Part shown: positions 17,692-63,026 of the stretch, piece after piece | Numbering within the stretch: position 1 is the first letter of the stretch | Layout: each line of letters starts with the position of its first letter | NCBI GenBank assembly: GCA_900473175.1 | Contig: UCKM01000025.1 | Location: 62,001-126,000 of the forward strand | Length of the DNA stretch: 64,000 nt | Reading direction: 5' to 3' | Origin: Hyphomicrobiales bacterium | GTDB taxonomy: Bacteria > Pseudomonadota > Alphaproteobacteria > Rhizobiales > Rhizobiaceae | Notes under the pieces: generated by a model | What the model was told of the DNA's origin: nothing | The model's database searches: none | The model's input: the letters and a program-made list of their open reading frames with translations, nothing else | Made by a program: the position numbers and the translations under genes

Positions 17692-20600
17692 ATGGCGACA
17701 CTCGTTCTTACAGCGGCAGCGGGTTATCTCTTCACAACCGGCACGGTGGCGGCTGCCATCGGCACTGCTGCTGCATCGCTTGGCGGATACCTCATCGACC
17801 AGGCGCTATTCGGCCAGCGCGTCGAAAGCGGCCGCATGTCCTCTATGCGCCCGACCGTCGCTGAAGAGGGAGCTGCCTTGCCGCGTATCTACGGCACGGC
17901 GCGACTCTCCGGAGCGTTGATCTGGGCGACGCGCTTCGAGGAAGTCAAAACCAAGCGGCAGGGTGCAAAGGGTGGTCCCAAGGTCACGGAATATTCCTAC
18001 TTCGCCAATTTCGCCATCGCGGTTGCAGACAAGGAGATCAGTCTCGTCCGCCGCATGTGGGCCGACGGCAAGGAGTTCGACCAGACGAAGTGCACGATCC
18101 GGGTGTACAAGGGTAATGAATCGCAGCAGGCCGATCCACTGATCGAAGCCAAGCAGGGTCGCGGCAACGCGCCCGCCTATCGCGGCACCGCCTATGTGGT
18201 CTTCGAACGATTCCCGCTCGATGATTTCGGCAACCGCATTCCCCAATTCCAGTTCGAAGTCGTACGTGCAATTGGCGCAGCCGCGCGCGATCTGCGCGCT
18301 GTCGCCTTGATTCCCGGCGCGACAGAGTTCGGACTGTCGCCGCAGCTTGTCACCAATGAACCGAGCAAGGGTGTGACAAGGGCGCTCAATCGCAATTGCC
18401 TGCGTGGCCAGACCGACTGGCAGGCGTCCATGGACGAGCTGCAATCGCTTGCTCCTGGTCTGAAACATGTGGCGATCGTCGTGCCCTGGTTCGGGACGGA
18501 TTTGCGGGCAGCGCAATGCAAGCTCCTGCCAGGCGCGATGGAGCGAAAGGGCTATGGCGAGACCCAGACCTGGCGCGCCGGCGGCGTCGGTCGGTCGGAC
18601 GCGCATCTGATTTCCCGCGCTGCGGATGGCGCCGTCTATGGCGGCACGCCGTCTGACGCCAGTGTGATTGCCGCCATTCGTGACGCGAAGGCAAGGGGCC
18701 TTGGCGTTACGCTCTATCCGTTCGTCATGCTCGATATTCCAGACAGCAACCAGTTGCCTGACCCGTATGGTTCCGCACGGCAGGCGACATTCCCCTGGCG
18801 TGGGCGGATAACCTGCGATCCGGCGCCCTATCATTCCGGCAGCGTCAATCGGTCCGCCGCCGCGGCCGCGCAAATCGCGGCCTTCCTCGGCAGCGCAAAG
18901 CCGGGAGATTTTACTGTCAAGAAGGAGCAGATTTCATTCAAGGGAGGAAAAGGCGATTGGGGCTATCGCAGGATGGTTCAGCACATGGCGCAACTGGCCA
19001 TCATCGCCGGCGGCGTCGATACGTTCCTGCTCGGATCGGAACTCTGCGGCCTCAGCATCGTCAGGGATCAGGCCGGCAACTTTCCGTTCGTTGGCGCCCT
19101 TTGCGATCTTGCTTCCGACCTGCGGGGCATGCTTGGAGCTAACTGCAAGTTGACCTACGGCGCCGACTGGACGGAGTATTTCGGTCATCACCCGCAGGAT
19201 GGCTCAGGCGATGTCTACTTTCATCTCGATCAGCTGTGGTCGCATCCGGCGATCAATGCGGTCGGCATCGACAATTACATGCCGCTCAGCGACTGGCGCG
19301 AGGAGGATTACGGCGTTCCAAATCCTGATGGCTTTGCAGCGCCCTATGATCTTGCGGCATTGCAAAAACAAATAACCTCCGGCGAGGGGTTCGACTGGTA
19401 CTATGCAACAGCTGACGACCGGACAATGCGGAAAAGAACGCCGGTCACCGACGGATCGGGAAAGCCATGGGTTTATCGCTACAAGGATATTGCAAGCTGG
19501 TGGCAAAACCGGCACTACAACCGCATTGGTGGCGTCGAAAGCACATCGCCCACCGCCTGGCAGCCGATGGCAAAGCCCGTATGGTTCACGGAACTCGGAT
19601 GCCCGGCCGCAGACAAGGGGCCGAACCAGCCTAATGTCTTTCCGGATATGCGATCATCCGAAGGGGCTTTCCCGTATTTTTCGGACCATGGCCGCTGTGA
19701 TCTCGCCCAGAACCGATATTTGCGCGCGCATTTCGGCTATTGGAAAGCCGGCAATGGCGGCGCCATGCTCGATACGGACCGCCTCTACGTCTGGGCCTGG
19801 GATACGCGGCCGTTTCCCGAATTTCCGCTCAATCGTTCATTGTGGTCCGATGGCAGCAATTGGACGTCGGGTCATTGGCTCAATGGACGATTGGCAGGGG
19901 TAGCGCTTGACGAACTCCTCTTCGCCATTCTCGCTGATTTCGGCGTGACCAATGCCGATACGAGCCAGGTCGATGGCTTCGTCAGCGGCTATGTGATCGA
20001 GGATGCGACGAGCGCGCGATCGGTGCTGGAGCCGATCCTCGCCCTGTTCGGTATCGATGCCTTCGAAGATGGTGACCGGCTGGTCTTTCGCGGTGCCGGC
20101 CATATCGATCGCGAAGCGTCGCTGATCACGGAATTCGTCGAGCCGCAGGAGAATGGACCCGTCACCCTTCGCCTGCAGGAATTGACCGACCAGCCCGCCC
20201 GCTTTGAAATCGCCTATCGCGATCCGATGCTCGACTACCAGGCGGCGATGGCCGTGGCGGAGCGACTTGACGGCAAGGGGACCGAAAATATCGCAATTCC
20301 CGGCATGATCGACAGCGGCCAGGCCAAGACGCTGGCGGAGGAGTGGTTACAGGAGCGCCACGCGGCGCGGCGCTCGGCCACATTCGAGCTTCCGTGGAAA
20401 AACGCGGCACTGAAGCCCGGAGACAAGATCAGACTTGCCGGCACGGCTTCCACGTCGGATTTCGTCGTTACCTCGATCGAGGATGGCGCGACGCGCCGGG
20501 TCGAGGCACGGGCGATGCCGCACCATATCCGCTATCCGGATCGGGCAGGGTTACCTGCGCCTGCCAATGGCGGAAACTCGCAAATCCGCGGCCGGCCCTA

Positions 20601-21540
20601 TTTCCAGATTTTCGATTTGCCGATGTGGCCGGGGGTTGAAAAACCATCCGACCAGTTTCGCGTCGCGGCCTTTGCCAAGCCATGGAGCGGCGTCGGGGTC
20701 TATGTTTCGCCCGAAATGTCGGGGTTCGAGCCGAGAGCAACGCTTGGCAATCAGGCCGTGACCGGTGCGCTGACCGCGCCACTCGGCCCTGGCGTGGGCG
20801 GGCGGCTGTTGAACGATCAAGCCCTCGAAGTCGAACTCTATTACGGCGAGCTCAGCACAGTATCATTGTCGCAGCTGTTGAGCGGCGCCAATACGGCGCT
20901 GCTCGGGACGCCGGACGGCAATTGGGAAATCCTGCAATTCCTTGAGGCCGAAGAGATTGCAGGTGACCGCTGGCGGTTGACCCGCCTCCTGCGAGGCCAA
21001 TGCGGCACCGAGTACGAGGCCAACCAGGTGAAGCCGGAGGAAACACCGTTTGTCTTGCTCGACACGGCGGTTCTTCCGATGGGGCTTAAGGTGCAGGAGG
21101 CAGGTCTGGAGCTCAACTGGCGCATCGGTACCGCCGGCGAGGATTTTTCAGACCAGTATTTTGTTACTGTAACGAAGGCTGGCGGCCTTCGCGCCCTGCA
21201 ACCGCTCGAACCGGTCCACCTCAGAGCGCAGACCGAAGTGAGCGGCGATATCCTGTTCAGCTGGATCAGACGCGGACGAATCGATGCAGACAGTTGGCTG
21301 GCGGCCGATATACCCCTTGGCGAGGAAAGCGAGACCTATCGGATCGAGCTCAGGGCGGATGGACAGCTGGTTCGTTCGTTTGACGTCAGCAGCGCCAGCT
21401 GGATCTACCCGCTTTCGCAGCGCAGCGATGATCTTGGCATGAATTCGGCATTTGATATCAGCGTCGCCATGATGTCAGCCGTGACTGGACCCGGGCGCAG
21501 CGCCGGCTTGACAATTCGGCCAAAACCAATTGAAAAATAA
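17692..21540 (+). CDS. GTA TIM-barrel baseplate multidomain protein (g15, 'megatron')
   Basis: A 1282-residue giant baseplate protein. The N-terminal hydrophobic glycine/alanine segment (LVLTAAAGYLFTTGTVAAAIGTAAAS) leads into a tail-hub region (about 40-390). A TIM-barrel, GTA_TIM domain spans about 400-740 (VDTFLLGSELCGLSIV, TYGADWTEYFGHHPQDGSGD, VWFTELGCPAADKG), and phage tail-hub-like domains follow (RFEIAYRDPMLDYQAA, near 840) with an immunoglobulin-like C-terminal part (LRALQPLEPVHLRA). RcGTA g15 is the corresponding host-contact protein. AAAGAA lies upstream of the ATG. It is separated from g14 by the REP element. Confidence 0.93.
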   Translation: MATLVLTAAAGYLFTTGTVAAAIGTAAASLGGYLIDQALFGQRVESGRMSSMRPTVAEEGAALPRIYGTARLSGALIWATRFEEVKTKRQGAKGGPKVTEYSYFANFAIAVADKEISLVRRMWADGKEFDQTKCTIRVYKGNESQQADPLIEAKQGRGNAPAYRGTAYVVFERFPLDDFGNRIPQFQFEVVRAIGAAARDLRAVALIPGATEFGLSPQLVTNEPSKGVTRALNRNCLRGQTDWQASMDELQSLAPGLKHVAIVVPWFGTDLRAAQCKLLPGAMERKGYGETQTWRAGGVGRSDAHLISRAADGAVYGGTPSDASVIAAIRDAKARGLGVTLYPFVMLDIPDSNQLPDPYGSARQATFPWRGRITCDPAPYHSGSVNRSAAAAAQIAAFLGSAKPGDFTVKKEQISFKGGKGDWGYRRMVQHMAQLAIIAGGVDTFLLGSELCGLSIVRDQAGNFPFVGALCDLASDLRGMLGANCKLTYGADWTEYFGHHPQDGSGDVYFHLDQLWSHPAINAVGIDNYMPLSDWREEDYGVPNPDGFAAPYDLAALQKQITSGEGFDWYYATADDRTMRKRTPVTDGSGKPWVYRYKDIASWWQNRHYNRIGGVESTSPTAWQPMAKPVWFTELGCPAADKGPNQPNVFPDMRSSEGAFPYFSDHGRCDLAQNRYLRAHFGYWKAGNGGAMLDTDRLYVWAWDTRPFPEFPLNRSLWSDGSNWTSGHWLNGRLAGVALDELLFAILADFGVTNADTSQVDGFVSGYVIEDATSARSVLEPILALFGIDAFEDGDRLVFRGAGHIDREASLITEFVEPQENGPVTLRLQELTDQPARFEIAYRDPMLDYQAAMAVAERLDGKGTENIAIPGMIDSGQAKTLAEEWLQERHAARRSATFELPWKNAALKPGDKIRLAGTASTSDFVVTSIEDGATRRVEARAMPHHIRYPDRAGLPAPANGGNSQIRGRPYFQIFDLPMWPGVEKPSDQFRVAAFAKPWSGVGVYVSPEMSGFEPRATLGNQAVTGALTAPLGPGVGGRLLNDQALEVELYYGELSTVSLSQLLSGANTALLGTPDGNWEILQFLEAEEIAGDRWRLTRLLRGQCGTEYEANQVKPEETPFVLLDTAVLPMGLKVQEAGLELNWRIGTAGEDFSDQYFVTVTKAGGLRALQPLEPVHLRAQTEVSGDILFSWIRRGRIDADSWLAADIPLGEESETYRIELRADGQLVRSFDVSSASWIYPLSQRSDDLGMNSAFDISVAMMSAVTGPGRSAGLTIRPKPIEK

Positions 21541-39254: not shown

Positions 39255-39354
39255 TCATTGTGGCGGGACTTGAGAGTAGGAAAATTGGCGGATCATGTGG
39301 CCGAGGTGCCGGGCGAAAATCGGGTCTCTCGAACGGGCGAGAGTGGGCAAAATG

Positions 39355-39381
39355 GAGGCGGCGCCTGATGTCCGCCGCCTC
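39355..39381 (-). terminator. Terminator hairpin after the repeat lipoprotein gene
   Basis: GAGGCGGCG at 39355-39363 pairs with CGCCGCCTC at 39373-39381 (9 bp, 9-base loop). On the minus strand it is followed by CCATTTTGCC, a short T-run. It lies 12 bases beyond the stop codon of the lipoprotein gene. Confidence 0.6.
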
Positions 39382-39392
39382 GCATTTCGATG

Positions 39393-42300
39393 TTACTTGT
39401 AAGTACCGTCCACAATAGCCAGGACCGTATACAGGGAAGGACCGAATGTCTGACTGTTGGCCGTGAACCTCATGGCCGATGCCACGACAGGTGTATCCAA
39501 AACAATGAATTTGGAAGCGCCAATTGCCGGAATGGATGGTTTTCCGGGCAACGAAGGCGTTTCGGTTCCGCTGGCGATCTGTGTCCATTTCCCTCCAATG
39601 TTTGCCTCGATCGTATAGCTGGTTGTGCGACCGGCAAAGCCACCCTCGGCCATCTGTATGCCCTTGATTTTGACGGGTTTGGCATAGGTCTGCGTCAAGG
39701 TCGCGCTCTTGGTGAGATCATCAGTGGCCCACCTTGACGTCGGATCGCTGTCCGCTGCCATGCTAGGGGCGTATATACGAGCATTGGCGAATATATTCGA
39801 TGCTGTTGCCGTGCCGAAGGCATAGACGTTGTCATGGGTGTCGGCGACGAGCTTCAGCGTCAAAGGCTCCCTGGCCGTACGCGATACCGCTGAAAAGTCG
39901 AGTGTGGTCATGCCTGTGGTAACATTCTTCGTGATCTTGACCTCCGGGGGCAGGGTCGCGCCACCGGTGACGAGTGGAGTGGCGCTGGTGACATCGACAA
40001 AAGCAGTAGGCAGGTCGATCGTCTTCTGGTTTTGGTCGCGGATGAAAAGATAGACATAGTGGTTGCCATCCGCGCCGGTGCCTTGCGTGGAATCAAATCC
40101 TGGAATGCCCGCCTTGGTGCCATAGATGGCCTCGGCGTTATCTTTAACCCACTTACCGACCGCACCGAATTCAATTCCGACATCGTCCGGCAGTGTACCA
40201 TCACCACGCGGGCCGATATTCAGTACGAAATTCTTGCCATTGGAAATGGTGGTCAAAAGCAGCTGAAAGATCCATTCCCGCTTCTGGATGCCTTGGGTAT
40301 CCGTATAGCCCCATCTGTTTCCTCCACAACAATCGGCAAGATCGGGAAGCATACTGGTAGCGACGATTTCCCCGGGCGTATTGACGACATCTGGGGCCAA
40401 TACGGGAAGTTCATGGATGGTGAAATCGTCGGGATCTTTCATTTCAGGGTCGCCAGTGCCGTTCTCGGTACCGATCAGGACCTTGGGCTGGGCCTTGCGA
40501 ATCGTGCTGTACAGAGTTCCAAACTCCCAATCCGACTGCTTTTTTGCCCAACCGCCGGCAAACCAGATCTGGGCCATATCCCCGTAATTAGTAAACAGTT
40601 CCGTCATCTGCTTGTTCAGGAAGGCGCGATATTTAACCCAGTCTCCTTTACGCTCGGAGTAAAGCGTGAATCCGCTACCTGGATAGTCCAGATTAAGTTG
40701 GTTAATCAGTGAATACAACAGGACAAACCTGACCCCCTGCTTTTTACATTCGTCGGCAAAAAGCTTCAGAACATCCTGATGCGGACCGAACGTGTTGGAA
40801 TTGTATCCTTTGGAAAATTCGTCGGCCTTCGTATCCCATAGCGAGTAACCGTCCATGTTCTGCACCGAAAGGACGATATAGCCCATGCCGGTATCTTTGG
40901 CGAGCTTGACCATGGACGCTACGTTCGTTGCGTTGGGGAGAAACTGGGATGCAAAGGAATTATATAAGTCGAGACCGGCTTGCGTGCCGACATTGTAGGG
41001 TGGGTTGTTGATGGCCCATTCACTCTTCCCGGTGGCACTGAAAATACCCCAGGTGATCATCATGCCAAACCTGCTTTTGTCATAGCTGGTTACGCTCGGC
41101 GCGCGGATTGCTTTCCCCGCTTGCGCCGCTGACGCTTGCGCTTGTGCCAGGAGGGTTGGTGTCGATTTGGCCAATGTTTGTGCCGCTGTTGCCGCCGTCT
41201 TTGCCGCATCGGCGGCTGCTTTGGCCGCTTCAGCCGATGGCGCATTGGCCGCGTTGTCCGCTGCCATCTTTGCAGCAGCAGCGGCCGCCTTTGCATTTGC
41301 CGCATTGTCCGTTGCCGTTTTCAAGGCTTCGTTCGCTGCCGCTAGTGCGTCTTGTGCCGCCTTTGCCGTTGCCTGCAGTACCGGGTCCGTTGGTGCATTT
41401 ACCAAGTCGGTCGCTGCTGCCTTTGCCGCTGCGGCGGTTACCTCAACTGCGGCTGCGGTTTTTGCCTTTGTATCCATCACGGTCTGAGCTGCCGCATTGG
41501 CGGCATCGACCGCCGCGTTTGCCGCCGCGACCTCCGCCGCTTTTGCCGCACCCATTGCAGCATCGACAGCTGCTTGCGCCTCCTGGGCTGATGGCGCAAT
41601 TGCTGCATTGTTCGCTGCTGTTTGTATTGCCGCCAATGCTGTCGCCGCTCTTGCCGCATCGGCCGTCGCTATCGCCAAGGCCTCGTCAGCTGCTACTTTC
41701 GCTGCTTTTGCTGTTTGGTCCGCATCAATGAATGCCGGGTCCGTTGTTGCTTTCGCCAGATTGCCCGCTGCTGTATCCGCAGCTGTTTGTGCATTCGCCG
41801 CATTCTGCTTTGCTATATTCAATGCGTCCTTCGCGGCCTGATCTGTCGCTTTTGCCAAGCCAAGTGCTGCATCCACCGCCGCGACAGCAGCTTTCTTCAG
41901 GACTGCTTCAGGCACGCCGGCAGGGCTGGTGCCGGGATTAGCGTCTGGCGCTGCGGCTGGATCAAAGCTCCACTTGGTCTCAGCGGTGCCGGCAAGGCTG
42001 GTGCCGGGATTGGCGTCTGGCGCTGCGGCGGGATCAAAGCTCCATTTCTTTTCGGCTGCGCCGGCAAGGCTGGCGCCCGGATTGGCGTCTGGCGCTGCGG
42101 CAGGATCGAAGCTCCATTTCTTTTCGGCTGCGCCGGCAAGGCTGGCGCCCGGATTGGCGTCTGGCGCTGCGGCTGAATCAAAGCTCCATTTCTTTTCAGC
42201 TGTGCCGGCAAGGTTCACGCCCGGATTTTTGCCTGGCGCTGCGGCTGGATCAAAGCTCCAATTCTTTTCGGCTGTGCCGGCAAGGCTGGTGCCGGGGTTA

Positions 42301-42719
42301 GCGTCTGGCGCTGCGGCCGGATCAAAGCTCCATTTCTTTTCAGCGGTGCCGGCAAGGTTCATGCCCGGATTTTTGCCTGGCGCTGGTGCAGGATCGAAGC
42401 TCCACTTCTTGTCGACGGTGCCGGTAAGGCTGGTGCCCGGATTGGCGTCTGGCGCTGCGGCGGGATCAAAGCTCCACTTCGTCTCAGCGATGCCGGCAAG
42501 GCTGGTGCCGGGATTAGCGTTTGGCGCTGCGGCGGGATCGAAGCTCCATTTAGGATCACCAATGACAGTGGTGCCTGCAGGTGCATCTTTGCTAGCCGTT
42601 GAAACCGGAGCGAATGTGCCCGAATTTGAGACGTTGGAGGCCGGGGTATTTGAGCCGTCGCAGCCAGAAACAAAGATAGCGGTTGTCGTTGCCAGAATGG
42701 CAAGAAGGGAAGGTCTCAC
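39393..42719 (-). CDS. Repeat-rich lipoprotein with GH29-like (pseudo-fucosidase) and discoidin-like domains
   Basis: A 1108-residue protein. A lipoprotein signal ends in VSGC (Cys20) with Asp at +2. Nine tandem 24-residue repeats (KWSFDPAAAPDANPG core, residues 57-272) are followed by an alanine-rich helical stalk (about 273-545), an alpha-L-fucosidase-like GH29 barrel (about 548-880: RFGMMITWG, GYIVLSVQNMDGYSLWDTK, AQIWFAGGW) and a C-terminal F5/8 type C-like domain (about 965-1108: SRWATDDLTKSATLTQTY). The usual GH29 residues are changed: His of HWG is Thr556, HH of KHHDGF is Asn621/Met622, and the nucleophile Asp is Ala721. It looks like a surface or periplasmic sugar-binding pseudoenzyme; this is inference. 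Not in an operon. Confidence 0.8.
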   Translation of the reverse strand: MRPSLLAILATTTAIFVSGCDGSNTPASNVSNSGTFAPVSTASKDAPAGTTVIGDPKWSFDPAAAPNANPGTSLAGIAETKWSFDPAAAPDANPGTSLTGTVDKKWSFDPAPAPGKNPGMNLAGTAEKKWSFDPAAAPDANPGTSLAGTAEKNWSFDPAAAPGKNPGVNLAGTAEKKWSFDSAAAPDANPGASLAGAAEKKWSFDPAAAPDANPGASLAGAAEKKWSFDPAAAPDANPGTSLAGTAETKWSFDPAAAPDANPGTSPAGVPEAVLKKAAVAAVDAALGLAKATDQAAKDALNIAKQNAANAQTAADTAAGNLAKATTDPAFIDADQTAKAAKVAADEALAIATADAARAATALAAIQTAANNAAIAPSAQEAQAAVDAAMGAAKAAEVAAANAAVDAANAAAQTVMDTKAKTAAAVEVTAAAAKAAATDLVNAPTDPVLQATAKAAQDALAAANEALKTATDNAANAKAAAAAAKMAADNAANAPSAEAAKAAADAAKTAATAAQTLAKSTPTLLAQAQASAAQAGKAIRAPSVTSYDKSRFGMMITWGIFSATGKSEWAINNPPYNVGTQAGLDLYNSFASQFLPNATNVASMVKLAKDTGMGYIVLSVQNMDGYSLWDTKADEFSKGYNSNTFGPHQDVLKLFADECKKQGVRFVLLYSLINQLNLDYPGSGFTLYSERKGDWVKYRAFLNKQMTELFTNYGDMAQIWFAGGWAKKQSDWEFGTLYSTIRKAQPKVLIGTENGTGDPEMKDPDDFTIHELPVLAPDVVNTPGEIVATSMLPDLADCCGGNRWGYTDTQGIQKREWIFQLLLTTISNGKNFVLNIGPRGDGTLPDDVGIEFGAVGKWVKDNAEAIYGTKAGIPGFDSTQGTGADGNHYVYLFIRDQNQKTIDLPTAFVDVTSATPLVTGGATLPPEVKITKNVTTGMTTLDFSAVSRTAREPLTLKLVADTHDNVYAFGTATASNIFANARIYAPSMAADSDPTSRWATDDLTKSATLTQTYAKPVKIKGIQMAEGGFAGRTTSYTIEANIGGKWTQIASGTETPSLPGKPSIPAIGASKFIVLDTPVVASAMRFTANSQTFGPSLYTVLAIVDGTYK
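41904..42551 (-). repeat. Nine tandem 72-bp coding repeats
   Basis: Nine near-identical units of 72 bases encode the 24-residue repeats of the lipoprotein. Units differ mainly at the DAN/GKN and TSLAG/MNLAG positions. Two sub-types, DANPGTS and GKNP(M/V)N, alternate in the first five units. The array keeps frame because the unit length is a multiple of three, so expansion or contraction would change protein length without breaking it. Confidence 0.9.
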
Positions 42720-43100
42720 GATCTATTCTCCAAAATTGATTTTTTTTAATTACTTGCATGCACTACGTCGGCCACGTGCATTTGAGCCGCAGCCATCGTC
42801 GAGAAATTGTTCAGAACCGTCCTGTTGAATGGCGCTTACAATTTTCAACGCCGCACCGGTTTTGGGGTGCGATGGTATGAGCCACAAAAATGGCTGGCAT
42901 CAAAAAAACGCCGTTGCAAAAGAGGGATGCTCGCAACGGTAGCAATAAAAAATACGATCGATGCTGTAAACGATAAGGATACGGTATGCAAGAGGGGGGT
43001 GTGAGCCCGCCGGCTCAGCGCCTGTCACACGCCGGTACATCCTGAGGTTGCATATTCGGGCCGGTTTTTAGAGCCGGCAATACGAGACGACAGCTCAGTA
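42720..43100. other. Intergenic region between pepN and the repeat lipoprotein gene
   Basis: No gene is supported in these 381 bases. The left part must carry the lipoprotein promoter on the minus strand. A short stem GCCGG/CCGGC at 43060-43078 lies just after the pepN stop but has no T-run on that strand. Confidence 0.5.
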
Positions 43101-45746
43101 TTAAGCCAGCGTTCGCTCGACGATATCGCGAACATCCGCCGAAAGGCCGGTAACCGTGGCAATGGTTGCGAGCGCTTCGCGCGCGTGCTCGCGGCGCACG
43201 GGTTCGAAGGAGCGCCATGACCGCATTGCCGTCAGCAGCCGCGCGGCGAGCTGTGGGTTCTTCTTTTCGATCGTCAGGATCGTCTCGGCGAAGAACCGGT
43301 AGCCGCCGCCGTCGGCCCGGTTGAAGCCGGTCTGGTTGCCGCTTGAAAATGCCCCGATCAAGGCGCGGGTCCGATTCGGATTGTCGAGCGAGAACAGTTT
43401 GTGCGTCATGAGGCCCTGCACCTTGTCGAGCGCCTCGCTCCCGGGCTGCATCGCCTGCACGATGAACCATTTGTCCATGACGAGCGGATCGTTGCCGAAG
43501 CGCTCTTCGAAGGCTTTCAACGCCTGGACCGTGGCGTCGCTGCCGCTGAAGCGCTGGACGAGCACGCCGAGCGCGGCGGCGCGGTCGGTCATGTTGTCCG
43601 CATGCCGGAACTGACTGGTGGCGCGCTGCGGATTGGCCTCTGCGGCGCTGAGGTAATCGAGCAGCACATTGCGCAACGCGCGGCGGCCGGCACTGGCCGC
43701 ATCGGGCTGGAAAGCCCCTTGCTGATCGAGATCGTTGTAGAGCTGCGCGAATTTCTCCGCATGTGTTTCGGCGACAGCCTTGATCAAGGCCTCACGACTG
43801 CCGAGAATGGCGTCGGGGTCGATATTGGCACCAAGTTCACGCGCGATATCGCTCTCGGAAGGAATGCTGAGGCAAAGCGCCCGGAACGCCTCGTCCAGGG
43901 TAACGTTGAAGGCGATCTCGCCAAGTAGTTTGATCGATGAGTTTTCAACCGTCGCCGGTTTGCCGCCGCGAATGCGCTTCGAATTGCTGGTGAGCTTGGT
44001 GTTGAGAAGTTCCGTGAGAGCCTGCCAGCGCGTCACCTCGTCAGCGTCATTGCGGGCAAGGAAGATGAGGTCGGAGCGCGTCAGTTCGCTGGTCAGCGTG
44101 ACCGGTGCCGAGAACCCGCGCAGCAACGATGGCACCGGGCGTTCGGCAATGCCCGAAAAACTGAAGCGCTCCTTGCGCTTGCGCAGGTGGATGACGTCGC
44201 CCTTGACCAATCCGCCTTTGGCCGAGCGTGGCTTGAGTTCACGGCCCTTTGCACCGATGAGCCCGAACTTCACCGGGATATGCATCGGCTTCTTCGAGGG
44301 CTGTCCAGGCGTCGGCTTGAGTGACTGTTCGATTTCAATCTCGAATGTCTTCGTCGCCTGATCGTAGTCGTAAGTAATGGCAAGATTGGGCGTGCCTGCC
44401 TGATCATACCACAGCGCAAACTGGCTGAGATCCTCGCCGGAGGCGTCTTCGAATACCTTGATGAAATCCTCGATCGTCGCGGCGTCGCCGTCATGGCGTT
44501 CGAAATAAAGGTCCATGCCTTTGCGGAAGAGATCGGGACCGAGAATCGTGCGGATCATGCGCACGACCTCGGAGCCTTTTTCGTAGACAGTGGAGGTATA
44601 GAAATTGTTGATCTCGCGGAACTGCCGCGGACGGACCGGGTGGGCGAGGGGGCCAGCATCTTCCGGAAACTGATGTGCCTTGAGGCCCTTCACTTCAGCG
44701 ATGCGCTTGACCGGGCGTGAGCGCATGTCGGCCGAGAACTCGTGGTCGCGATAGACGGTAAGACCTTCCTTCAAGCAAAGCTGGAACCAGTCCCGGCAAG
44801 TGATTCTATTGCCTGTCCAATTGTGGAAATATTCGTGGGCGATCACGCCCTCGATTCCGGCATAATCGGTATCGGTCGCCGTCTCGGGGTCGGCGAGCAC
44901 GTACTTGTCGTTGAAGACATTGAGGCCCTTGTTCTCCATCGCCCCCATGTTGAAATCGGACACCGCAACGACGTTGAACACATCGAGATCGTATTCGCGG
45001 CCGAATGTGTCCTCGTCCCATTTCATTGAACGCTTCAGCGCATCCATGGCGTACCGCGCGCGCGGCTCCTTGCCATGTTCGACATAGATGCCAAGATCGA
45101 CGTGGCGGCCCGAGCCAGTGGTGAAGGTGTCGGTGATGACGCCCAGATCACCGGCGACCAGCGCAAACAGATAGGCGGGCTTTGGATGTGGATCGTGCCA
45201 AACGGCGAAATGGCGTCCATCGGTAAGCGCACCCTTATCTTTTGGATTGCCGTTCGACAGAAGCAGCGGCGCTTCCTTGCGCTCTGCTTCCACCCGGACG
45301 GTATAGACGGAGAGCAGGTCGGGCCGATCTAGGAAATAGGTGATGCGCCGGAAACCTTCGGCTTCGCACTGGGTGCAATAGACCCCACTTGAACGATAGA
45401 GACCGGTCAGTTGCCTGTTGGTCGTCGGATTGACCTCAGTGGTAATTTCGAGCGTGAATCTGCCGCTGACCGGCAGGCCGCGAATTTCAAGGCGGTCCGG
45501 GGTCGCCACATAGGCATTGTCCCCAAGAGGGGCGCCATCGATCCGGATATCAATGAGCTTGAGTTCATCGCCGTCGAGGATGAGCGGTGCGTCAGCGGCA
45601 GTGCCCTGCCTGCGCTCTATCTGCAATGTGGACTTGACGGTGGTGCGTTCGGGATGAAGGGCAAAATCCAGATGCGTTTGGGGAATGAGAAAATCGGTTG
45701 GCTTGTAATCATCCAGATGAAAAACTTGGCCGGTATCGGTACGCAT
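43101..45746 (-). CDS. pepN: Aminopeptidase N (M1 family)
   Basis: An 881-residue zinc aminopeptidase that trims N-terminal residues from peptides in the cytosol. The start is the ATG at 45744-45746 (MRTDTGQVFHLDDYKPTDFL); the frame is open upstream but that extension is antisense to the divergent transporter and has no family match. The exopeptidase motif MGAMENKG and the zinc site HEYFH (304-308) with Glu327 (LKEGLTVYRD) are intact. The C-terminal helical domain is complete. Length matches the alphaproteobacterial family. Confidence 0.95.
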   Translation of the reverse strand: MRTDTGQVFHLDDYKPTDFLIPQTHLDFALHPERTTVKSTLQIERRQGTAADAPLILDGDELKLIDIRIDGAPLGDNAYVATPDRLEIRGLPVSGRFTLEITTEVNPTTNRQLTGLYRSSGVYCTQCEAEGFRRITYFLDRPDLLSVYTVRVEAERKEAPLLLSNGNPKDKGALTDGRHFAVWHDPHPKPAYLFALVAGDLGVITDTFTTGSGRHVDLGIYVEHGKEPRARYAMDALKRSMKWDEDTFGREYDLDVFNVVAVSDFNMGAMENKGLNVFNDKYVLADPETATDTDYAGIEGVIAHEYFHNWTGNRITCRDWFQLCLKEGLTVYRDHEFSADMRSRPVKRIAEVKGLKAHQFPEDAGPLAHPVRPRQFREINNFYTSTVYEKGSEVVRMIRTILGPDLFRKGMDLYFERHDGDAATIEDFIKVFEDASGEDLSQFALWYDQAGTPNLAITYDYDQATKTFEIEIEQSLKPTPGQPSKKPMHIPVKFGLIGAKGRELKPRSAKGGLVKGDVIHLRKRKERFSFSGIAERPVPSLLRGFSAPVTLTSELTRSDLIFLARNDADEVTRWQALTELLNTKLTSNSKRIRGGKPATVENSSIKLLGEIAFNVTLDEAFRALCLSIPSESDIARELGANIDPDAILGSREALIKAVAETHAEKFAQLYNDLDQQGAFQPDAASAGRRALRNVLLDYLSAAEANPQRATSQFRHADNMTDRAAALGVLVQRFSGSDATVQALKAFEERFGNDPLVMDKWFIVQAMQPGSEALDKVQGLMTHKLFSLDNPNRTRALIGAFSSGNQTGFNRADGGGYRFFAETILTIEKKNPQLAARLLTAMRSWRSFEPVRREHAREALATIATVTGLSADVRDIVERTLA

Positions 45747-45965
45747 CGTATAACTGTCCTTTATGTGGTGCCGGAACCTATCCGCCTTTTGAATTGCATA
45801 CAACTGGAGCCGAGGGGGCGTAGACCCGATCACCCGAATGTTTGCGTCACAAATGCAACGTGATCGGCTTTGCATCTGGCTTGTCAGTTCAAACATGCAT
45901 ATAGATATATCAGTTTCCAGTCCAATTGCGGCCAGCCGTCGTCTTCTCCTCAAGGAATCCCAGTC

Positions 45966-46949
45966 GTGACCACTATTGTTCACCAGCGAGACGGTGAACC
46001 CCCTGTCGCAGAGAAGCTGCGCACCACCAATGTGATGCTTGGAATTGGTCTCAAGGTCGCTTCGGTCTGTGTCTTTGTCTGCATGTCGAGTCTGCTCAAG
46101 GCATCGGATGGGATCCCGGCAGGTCAACTTGTCTTCTTCCGCTCGTTTTTCGCGATCTTCCCGGTCATCACCTTCATCGCCTGGCAGGGGCAGATGAGCG
46201 TTGCCTTCAAGACGAGCGAACCATTCAGCCATTTCTGGCGGGGCTTCGTCGGCGTCAGCGCGATGAGCCTGAGTTTTTACGGGCTTACCAAGCTGCCGCT
46301 GCCGGAGTCGATCGCCATCAGCTATGCGACGCCGCTGCTGACCGTTGTGTGCAGCGCCATCTTCCTGCGCGAGACCGTGCGGCTCTATCGCTGGTCGGCT
46401 GTGTGTTTCGGTCTGGTCGGCGTACTGATCATCCTGTGGCCGCGCATGTCCTTTTTCACCGGCGAGACCGAATTTGGCGGTGATCAGGCGATCGGCGCGC
46501 TGGCAACGCTCGGCGGCGCCGGACTTGCTGCCATCGCGATGCTGCTGGTGCGCAAGCTGGTGCAGACCGAACGCACGCCGACGATCGTCGTCTACTTTTC
46601 GATCGCCTCAAGTCTGATCGCCTTGGTGAGTTTCCCCTTCGGCTGGGTATGGCCGACGGGATTACAGGCCACTTATCTCGTCATGGCCGGCATTGCCGGG
46701 GGCGTGGCGCAGATCCTTTTGACGGAAAGCTACCGGCACGCAGACATGTCGGCCATTGCTCCATTCGAATACACGTCCATGCTGCTGGGGCTTGCCATCG
46801 GTTACCTGCTCTTCGGCGATATTCCGACAACGGAGATGATCACAGGCGCGGTTATCGTAATCAGCGCCGGCATCTTCATCATCTACCGGGAGCACAGGCT
46901 GGGATTGGCCCGGGCGAGGGCGCGCAAGGCATCGACACCGCAGGGCTGA
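45966..46949 (+). CDS. EamA-family (DMT) transporter
   Basis: A 327-residue inner-membrane transporter with about ten transmembrane helices in two EamA halves (SSLLKASDGIPAGQLVFFRSF and AIAMLLVRKLV... VAQILLTESYRHADMSAIAPFEYTS). Start at the GTG 45966 with AAGGAA 9 bases upstream; the first 25 residues are polar and cytoplasmic. Such proteins export amino acids or other small metabolites; the substrate is not known. Divergent from pepN; its stop abuts the convergent MFS gene with no gap. Confidence 0.85.
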   Translation: MTTIVHQRDGEPPVAEKLRTTNVMLGIGLKVASVCVFVCMSSLLKASDGIPAGQLVFFRSFFAIFPVITFIAWQGQMSVAFKTSEPFSHFWRGFVGVSAMSLSFYGLTKLPLPESIAISYATPLLTVVCSAIFLRETVRLYRWSAVCFGLVGVLIILWPRMSFFTGETEFGGDQAIGALATLGGAGLAAIAMLLVRKLVQTERTPTIVVYFSIASSLIALVSFPFGWVWPTGLQATYLVMAGIAGGVAQILLTESYRHADMSAIAPFEYTSMLLGLAIGYLLFGDIPTTEMITGAVIVISAGIFIIYREHRLGLARARARKASTPQG

Positions 46950-62135: not shown

Positions 62136-63026
62136 ATGGGTGGTCGTATCACGCGCCGCGGGGCACTGATTGGATCGATGTTCGCCATGCCGGCACTGTC
62201 ATTGGCGACGAGATCAACGCAAGCCGCGCCATCGGGCAGGGTGGATCTCGCAGCCGCCTTCAAGACGTTGGAAGAGAGAACTGGTGCCCGCCTTGGAGTT
62301 GCGGCACACGATACCGGCAGCGATAATCGAATCGGCTATCGGGAAGACGAGCGGTTTGCCATGTGCAGTACCTTCAAGTTCCTGGCTGCAGCCGCAGTCC
62401 TTGCACGGGTCGACCGCGAGGAGGAGGAACTCAACCGGATCGTCAAATTCAAGAAAAGCGACCTCGTAGATTACTCGCCGGTTACGGAAAAACATCTCGA
62501 TTCTGGCATGTCGCTTGCGGCAATCTGCGAAGCCGCCGTCACGATGAGTGACAATACGGCGGGCAATCTCATGCTCGACAATATTGGCGGGCCGAAGGGC
62601 TTGACGGAATATGCACGCCGTCTCGGCGACGCGACATTTCGCCTGGACCGGCGGGAAACGGATCTCAATGAAGCCAAACCTGGCGATCCACGCGACACGA
62701 TTACACCAATTGCCATTTTGAAGGATCTGCAGAAGACAGCAATTGGTGATGCGCTCGGCAAGTCATCCCGCGATCAGCTGATCGAATGGCTGCTTGGCAG
62801 CAAGACAGGCGACAAGCGTCTGCGCGCCGGTTTGCCCAAGGACTGGAGCGTTGGCGACAAGACGGGTACGAGCGACAGCGGCATGGCCAATGACATAGCA
62901 GTCATCTGGCCACCGGAGCGCAAACCGATCCTTCTGGCGGTCTATCTTTATGACCCGAAGGGAACCCCTGATAGCCGCAATGAGATCCACCAGAAGGTCG
63001 CAAAACTAGTGGTCGAGAACCTATGA
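62136..63026 (+). CDS. Class A beta-lactamase with Tat-type signal
   Basis: A 296-residue serine beta-lactamase. The N-terminus MGGRITRRGALIGSMF has the paired arginines of a Tat signal and an AxA-like site near TQAAPS. The active-site motifs are S78-T-F-K81, S138-D-N140, E174-x-x-x-N178 (the deacylation Glu in RRETDLNEA) and K242-T-G244. Cys77 precedes the serine, as in carbapenemase-type enzymes, but position 238-like is Ser, so that disulphide cannot form. No LysR-type regulator is adjacent, so expression is probably constitutive. Probably an intrinsic chromosomal enzyme of the species; its substrate range cannot be told from sequence. Confidence 0.93.
   Translation: MGGRITRRGALIGSMFAMPALSLATRSTQAAPSGRVDLAAAFKTLEERTGARLGVAAHDTGSDNRIGYREDERFAMCSTFKFLAAAAVLARVDREEEELNRIVKFKKSDLVDYSPVTEKHLDSGMSLAAICEAAVTMSDNTAGNLMLDNIGGPKGLTEYARRLGDATFRLDRRETDLNEAKPGDPRDTITPIAILKDLQKTAIGDALGKSSRDQLIEWLLGSKTGDKRLRAGLPKDWSVGDKTGTSDSGMANDIAVIWPPERKPILLAVYLYDPKGTPDSRNEIHQKVAKLVVENL

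Follow-up and report, generated by a model that had tools for sequence, protein, structure and literature searches.

A predicted lipoprotein with a GH29-like barrel that lacks the fucosidase nucleophile and five of nine motif-mapped fucose contacts

Introduction

In GH29 enzymes the nucleophile is a conserved Asp, as stated in the accessible part of a review of the family. For the GH29 enzyme AlfC, the accessible part of the report (PMC7718225) places H18, H87 and Y131 in contact with O4 of fucose, E39 and W40 with O3, W40 and H88 with O2, and D200 with O1, with W283 and W198 around C6. According to the same part, the D200A mutant had undetectable activity, a reduction of more than 1e8-fold, and its crystal took up 4NP-fucoside despite this. 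A GH29 protein in which the nucleophile is changed to Ala can therefore still bind its substrate. Non-catalytic relatives are already known in other glycosidase families (PMC6549527, accessible part). In the accessible portions of the open-licence PMC literature on inactive or pseudo GH29 enzymes or glycosidases, we came across no natural GH29 protein without the Asp.

Here we describe a GH29-like gene in a window of 64,000 nucleotides from a Rhizobiaceae genome (contig UCKM01000025.1), whose protein product is called the query below and whose C-terminal part is called the head. A first-pass annotation of the window had read it as a lipoprotein with the fold of an alpha-L-fucosidase and a changed active site.

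Materials and Methods

GH29 domains were taken from ORFs of at least 200 residues with an E value of 1e-10 or better, drawn from 212 loci. Removal of identical domains and of those spanning fewer than 200 residues trimmed the set from 229 to 223, and column counts refer to the MAFFT alignment of these 223 other domains. The own-genome loci and the pepN loci (L001, L002, L011-L041) were omitted from the counts, and stops within its match kept L043 out of alignment A1. The loci compared are part of the matches listed in the genome searches; searches with the head used E limits of 1e-10 to 1e-30. Pattern-scan loci contributed 98 of the 223 domains; since the patterns contain HHDG/HHEG, HWG/HFG or DW, these 98 lean to intact pockets. 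From the genome pattern scan the best 80 of 569 matches were used. The other 125 came from searches with the query itself, from plasmid matches and from stretches taken at listed matches.

The AlfC contacts were mapped onto the alignment via common motifs (adjacent E-W, adjacent H-H and W-x-D) and not by direct alignment to AlfC. The head model covers the C-terminal 574 residues and was made from an alignment of the query with 53 relatives (53 of 92 available). From the full-length model, whose mean pLDDT of 45.4 is poor, only the tendency of the stalk to form helices was taken.

Results

The annotated gene was found as an open reading frame of 1108 codons with a GTG start (Table 1). Its signal peptide, recognised by eye, closes on a lipobox Cys as in bacterial lipoproteins; we take VSGC at residues 17-20, ending in Cys20, to be the lipobox. 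The repeat stalk described in the first pass consists of nine repeats of 24 residues (residues 58-273), whose copies differ mainly at silent sites (pN/pS 0.41, for the stalk only and with copies treated as independent). It is followed by an Ala-rich stretch in which the low-confidence full-length model predicts five long helices (residues 271-539). The discoidin-like (F5/8 type C, CBM32-like) domain, said to be intact, indeed passes the Pfam cut-off for PF00754 at residues 971-1089 (34.2 bits against 28.2). No NCBIfam family was found for the 1108-residue protein at E 0.1. The gene had no PHROG match at E 0.01, and on this ground a phage origin was rejected. Relatives of the stalk were absent from plasmid records with the low-complexity filter on, and elsewhere in its own genome no match to the stalk was better than E 0.098.

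Table 1. Features of the GH29-like gene and its insertion site (window positions)
Feature	Position	Strand	Basis or count
Inserted segment, histidine-kinase side homology end to pepN stop side	39268..43100	.	blastn
GGAGA, ribosome-binding-like site, 7 bases ahead of GTG	42727..42731	-	sequence
GH29-like lipoprotein ORF, 1108 aa, GTG start	39393..42719	-	ORF translation
Signal peptide, lipobox VSGC (Cys20), Asp at +2	42660..42719	-	sequence, by eye
Nine tandem 72-bp / 24-aa repeats, WSFDPAAAPDANPGTSLAGTAEKK type, aa 58-273	41901..42548	-	sequence
Ala-rich region, aa 274-535, predicted helical	41115..41900	-	single-sequence model, low confidence
GH29-like (beta/alpha)8 barrel, aa 539-863	40131..41105	-	PF01120 E 2.5e-48; model
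Thr556, His column of HWG (AlfC H18, O4 contact)	41052..41054	-	His in 213/223
Asn621-Met622, His-His columns of KHHDG (AlfC H87 O4, H88 O2)	40854..40859	-	His 222/223, 221/223
Leu668, Tyr column (AlfC Y131, O4 contact)	40716..40718	-	Tyr in 220/223
Asn673-Gln674, Asp-Trp columns	40698..40703	-	Asp 216/223, Trp 213/223
Ala721, nucleophile column (WFDG)	40557..40559	-	Asp in 223/223
Glu770, candidate general acid/base, E784 alternative	40410..40412	-	loop alignment ambiguous
Beta-sandwich behind barrel, aa 868-960, limits approximate	39840..40118	-	model secondary structure; common to full-length relatives
F5/8 type C (discoidin) domain, aa 971-1089	39453..39809	-	PF00754

The alpha-L-fucosidase fold proposed for the head was borne out by both profile and model. 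The score against PF01120 was 165.7 bits, far above the curated 25.2 (E 2.5e-48). The head model has a mean pLDDT of 74.5, mostly 80-97 over the barrel and low in the acid/base loop and the linkers. Its best solved fold match is 9eu4 (Z 41.0 over 398 residues, rmsd 2.9 Å), and the solved structures listed as matching are GH29 enzymes. The comparison with the T. maritima alpha-fucosidase that the first pass had suggested gave Z 33.1 for the fucose complex 1odu, as a fit of the whole fold. In the model, the changed residues (22, 87-88, 134 and 187 in its numbering) fall within predicted strands of the barrel or at strand ends.

The motif strings TWG, VQNMDGY and WFAGGW had all been read correctly, and the count of at least four changed key positions holds: T556, N621, M622 and A721 occupy the His, His-His and Asp columns. 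Their placement is the same in the MAFFT alignments and in five HMMER alignments to solved GH29 structures. L668, N673 and Q674 are changes beyond that list. T556, N621, M622 and L668 stand where AlfC, by motif mapping, has its fucose-contacting His, His-His and Tyr, and A721 stands where every other domain has the nucleophilic Asp. E567, W568, W719 and W803 of the pocket are retained. Might the catalytic residues have been displaced to neighbouring positions, as the first pass had allowed? The five residues on either side of A721 include neither Asp nor Glu, and no His is found over the same distance around 556 or 621-622, which excludes a small displacement. The acid/base column holds Glu in 213 of the 223 domains, and the candidate for it in the query is E770 or E784; the loop is placed differently between alignments and modelled with a pLDDT of about 35 at residues 775-792. 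Two further candidates were dropped: E784 as a firmly retained residue, because HMMER and MAFFT disagree, and loss of an active-site Arg as an additional change, because 145 of the 223 domains have Arg in that column and 72 have Asn.

By motif mapping of the nine contacts given in the accessible AlfC source, the query is without five. Among the 223 other domains 169 lack none, 46 lack one, seven lack two and one lacks three. For Y131 an alternative is the adjoining, less conserved column (Tyr in 135/223), where the query has Tyr. On the same mapping, the changes affect the contacts to O4 and O1 and one of the two to O2, and both O3 contacts (E567 and W568, the latter also an O2 contact) and both C6 tryptophans (W719 and W803) are retained. 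In an earlier set of 194 domains, the columns conserved at 90% or above comprise eight fucose-contact columns, of which five are lost in the query, and 28 others, of which five are lost (Fisher one-sided p 0.024, which is modest evidence because the columns are few). The lost positions appear to be concentrated in the pocket more than expected by chance.

Because a retaining GH29 enzyme requires the Asp and AlfC D200A is inactive, we take the head to have no fucosidase activity. From the alignment, the absence of this activity is highly probable, and the head is very unlikely to be a retaining alpha-fucosidase. The loss of fucosidase chemistry claimed in the first pass is well supported, the nucleophile being Ala as in the AlfC mutant with its more than 1e8-fold loss of activity (PMC7718225, accessible part). 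The head could still hydrolyse glycosides, by a different mechanism or on a different substrate: E770 or E784 would then work with water or a group of the substrate, and no Asp nucleophile would be needed. The candidate acid/base column and the O3 and C6 contacts are kept, and GH29 also includes alpha-galactosidases and alpha-glucosidases, according to the accessible part of a review. Against such an enzyme stand the invariance of the Asp in 223/223 other GH29 domains, the lack of a substitute carboxylate within five residues of A721, and an acid-bearing loop that is unreliably aligned and modelled. We regard an active hydrolase as quite unlikely. The retained candidate acid Glu (E770/E784) leaves some room for the new chemistry offered as an option in the first pass, yet nothing positive speaks in its favour.

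Other domains also show single departures at these columns. At the His of HWG they are Thr, Val, Asn, Ser or Cys, with the Asp intact in all; Thr occurs there once (L168, Asp intact). Met at the second His occurs once among the other domains, in L202. The motif of L202 reads KHMDGF with the Asp intact, one step in the direction of the query. The first pass had proposed a GH29 phylogeny for finding a clade with the same substitutions, and none of the 223 domains compared belongs to such a clade. In the 125 domains from searches other than the pattern scan, the Asp is present in 125/125 and the two His in 125/125 and 124/125.

Single-protein scans of genome contigs and viral contigs found no relative. 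An alignment scan of the viral contigs yielded six GH29 relatives, and no close one was among them. Plasmid records with a match numbered 296, all below 60% identity and at most 29% among the 40 listed. Besides the gene itself, identity was at most 37% among the matches listed, save one 71-residue piece at 39%. The own genome holds one PF01120 match. Counting this genome, matches to the head occurred in 1/20 genomes of the genus, 4/247 of the family, 2/385 of the class and 5/398 of the phylum, and in 0/19 of the other same-genus genomes. The corresponding numbers were 39/395 genomes in the phylum of Ohtaekwangia, 86/194 in that of a Verrucomicrobiales MAG and 43/226 in that of a Sedimentisphaerales MAG. 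The query branch measured 1.82 in one tree, the third longest of 224 tips, and 1.72 in the other, where it was the longest (median 0.28). Neither of the clades nearest to the query contains a Rhizobium sequence. As FastTree and IQ-TREE differ in these clades (12 tips in the first; 16 in the other, which carries no support value), no donor is named.

The gene lies between pepN and a histidine kinase gene. In comparisons with the pepN-kinase gaps of five same-genus loci, blastn matches end at window positions 39255-39267 and restart at 43101-43105, and the GH29-like gene is the sole gene recognised in the insert so delimited. It is missing between pepN and the histidine kinase in 8/8 same-genus loci examined (19 with pepN were found). 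The gap is short in five of the eight. In L032 (7558-13041) it contains sugar ABC transporter, NanE/NanK-like and GntR-like genes, in L033 (7529-8057) a toxin-antitoxin-like pair of RelBE type, all named by eye, and a similar gap of 1.3 kb is present in L037. What lies between pepN and the kinase gene varies within the genus, and acquisition is the most likely origin of the GH29-like gene. The GC content of the head is 0.53 against 0.586 for the window. Among plasmid records the best DNA matches belong to Shinella, Sinorhizobium and Rhizobium, which points to a member of the Rhizobiaceae.

Other features of the window were noted in passing. The pepN ORF (43101-46232, minus strand, 1043 aa) is extended at its N-terminus by about 160 residues, which overlap an EamA transporter ORF (45870-46949, plus strand); given the 881 aa of a relative's pepN ORF, the true start probably lies further inside. 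An ORF at 17692-21540 (plus strand) with GTA_TIM, phage-tail and Rcc01698-like domains is probably a gene transfer agent tail gene, and one at 62136-63026 (plus strand) carries the beta-lactamase enzyme family domain PF13354.

An acquired fucosidase gene without use might be a decaying relic, drifting and with its pocket gone first. The very long branch, the lack of a match in the 19 same-genus genomes and the GC content of the head below that of the window would fit such decay. A relic is nevertheless unlikely, as the gene runs through 1108 codons without a stop, and the retention of 23 of 28 conserved non-pocket columns beside changes in five of eight pocket columns is not predicted by drift alone. 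The stalk repeats, with their mostly silent differences, appear constrained and together with the intact ORF count for a functional protein.

Discussion

Then, what might a GH29 barrel without its nucleophile do? We lean towards a lipid-anchored protein carrying a non-hydrolytic, glycan-binding head on a repeat stalk, in line with the sugar-binding pseudoenzyme suggested in the first pass. An acquired GH29 fucosidase would have become part of a multi-domain lipoprotein that no longer hydrolyses fucosides. The barrel, its pocket rebuilt at O1, O2 and O4, would probably still hold a sugar but leave it uncut, and we consider such binding by the head somewhat favoured. A second contact with glycans may come from the discoidin domain, and the N-terminal half with its repeats and helices would keep the head off the membrane. 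Relatives that have the same barrel-sandwich-discoidin order together with an intact His-His and Asp (His-Met in one) count for this reading. The retained candidate acid Glu counts against a pure binding protein, which would have no need for one. Display on the outer surface and a role in attachment or glycan capture are tentative suggestions, and so are the surface adhesin and the host-glycan receptor put forward in the first pass. An Asp at lipobox +2 is an inner-membrane retention signal in enterics. If that rule applies here, the Asp at +2 of the query argues against surface display, and it could keep the lipoprotein at the inner membrane.

Binding might instead reside elsewhere in the protein, with the barrel as a mere scaffold and adhesion or cell-surface binding provided by the discoidin domain and the stalk. 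The discoidin domain does exceed its Pfam cut-off and the N-terminal half is made up of tandem repeats and predicted helices, but the kept E567, W568, W719 and W803 suggest that the pocket is still constrained, and we hold a mere scaffold to be distinctly improbable. If the head is a glycan-binding domain, which sugar might it hold? L-rhamnose and L-fucose differ exactly at C2 and C4 and have the C6 methyl group in common. The retention of the O3 and C6 contacts with changes at O4, O1 and half of O2 gave rise to the speculation of an L-rhamnose-like ligand. The head as a stalked, non-cutting lectin for another 6-deoxy sugar, e.g. the L-rhamnose of plant pectin or bacterial polysaccharide, is a long shot.

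If the preferred reading of a glycan-binding head is true, a natural GH29 protein in which the nucleophile and most fucose contacts have been replaced together, with the fold and the rest of the pocket preserved, would show a route from glycosidase to binding protein, and could serve as the basis for lectins that target deoxy sugars. An annotation of this gene as an alpha-L-fucosidase that relies solely on the Pfam score would probably be mistaken.

The GH29A alpha-L-fucosidases 9eu1, 9eu2 and 9eu4 (NNHH loop) and 6gn6 are the best sequence and fold matches of the query. They share with it the barrel fold, the E-W motif, the strand closing in W-F-x and the loop closing in Glu. At the positions where these enzymes have the His, the His-His, the Tyr and the nucleophilic Asp, the residues of the query are T, N-M, L and A. 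Full-length proteins from genomes of Verrucomicrobiota and Planctomycetota type (L080, L166, L196, L198-L202 and L217-L220) follow the domain order of the query, GH29 plus beta-sandwich plus F5/8C, with 24-28% identity over 508-533 aligned residues and a discoidin domain clearly in common. Unlike the query, they retain the His, Tyr and Asp (the one exception being Met in place of the second His in L202), and their E-W motif has a different shape. Their listed ORFs of 577-679 aa are too short for a stalk like that of the query.

The beetle pectinases belong to a glycoside hydrolase family other than GH29. As in the query, catalysis has been lost within a glycosidase family, but the accessible part of the report describes multigene families (PMC6549527), whereas the query is a single gene. 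The laboratory mutants AlfC D200A and T. maritima D224G, both with solved structures, resemble the query in having a small residue at the nucleophile position, and AlfC D200A binds without cutting (PMC7718225, accessible part). In each of these mutants one residue was changed, whereas the query carries several changes.
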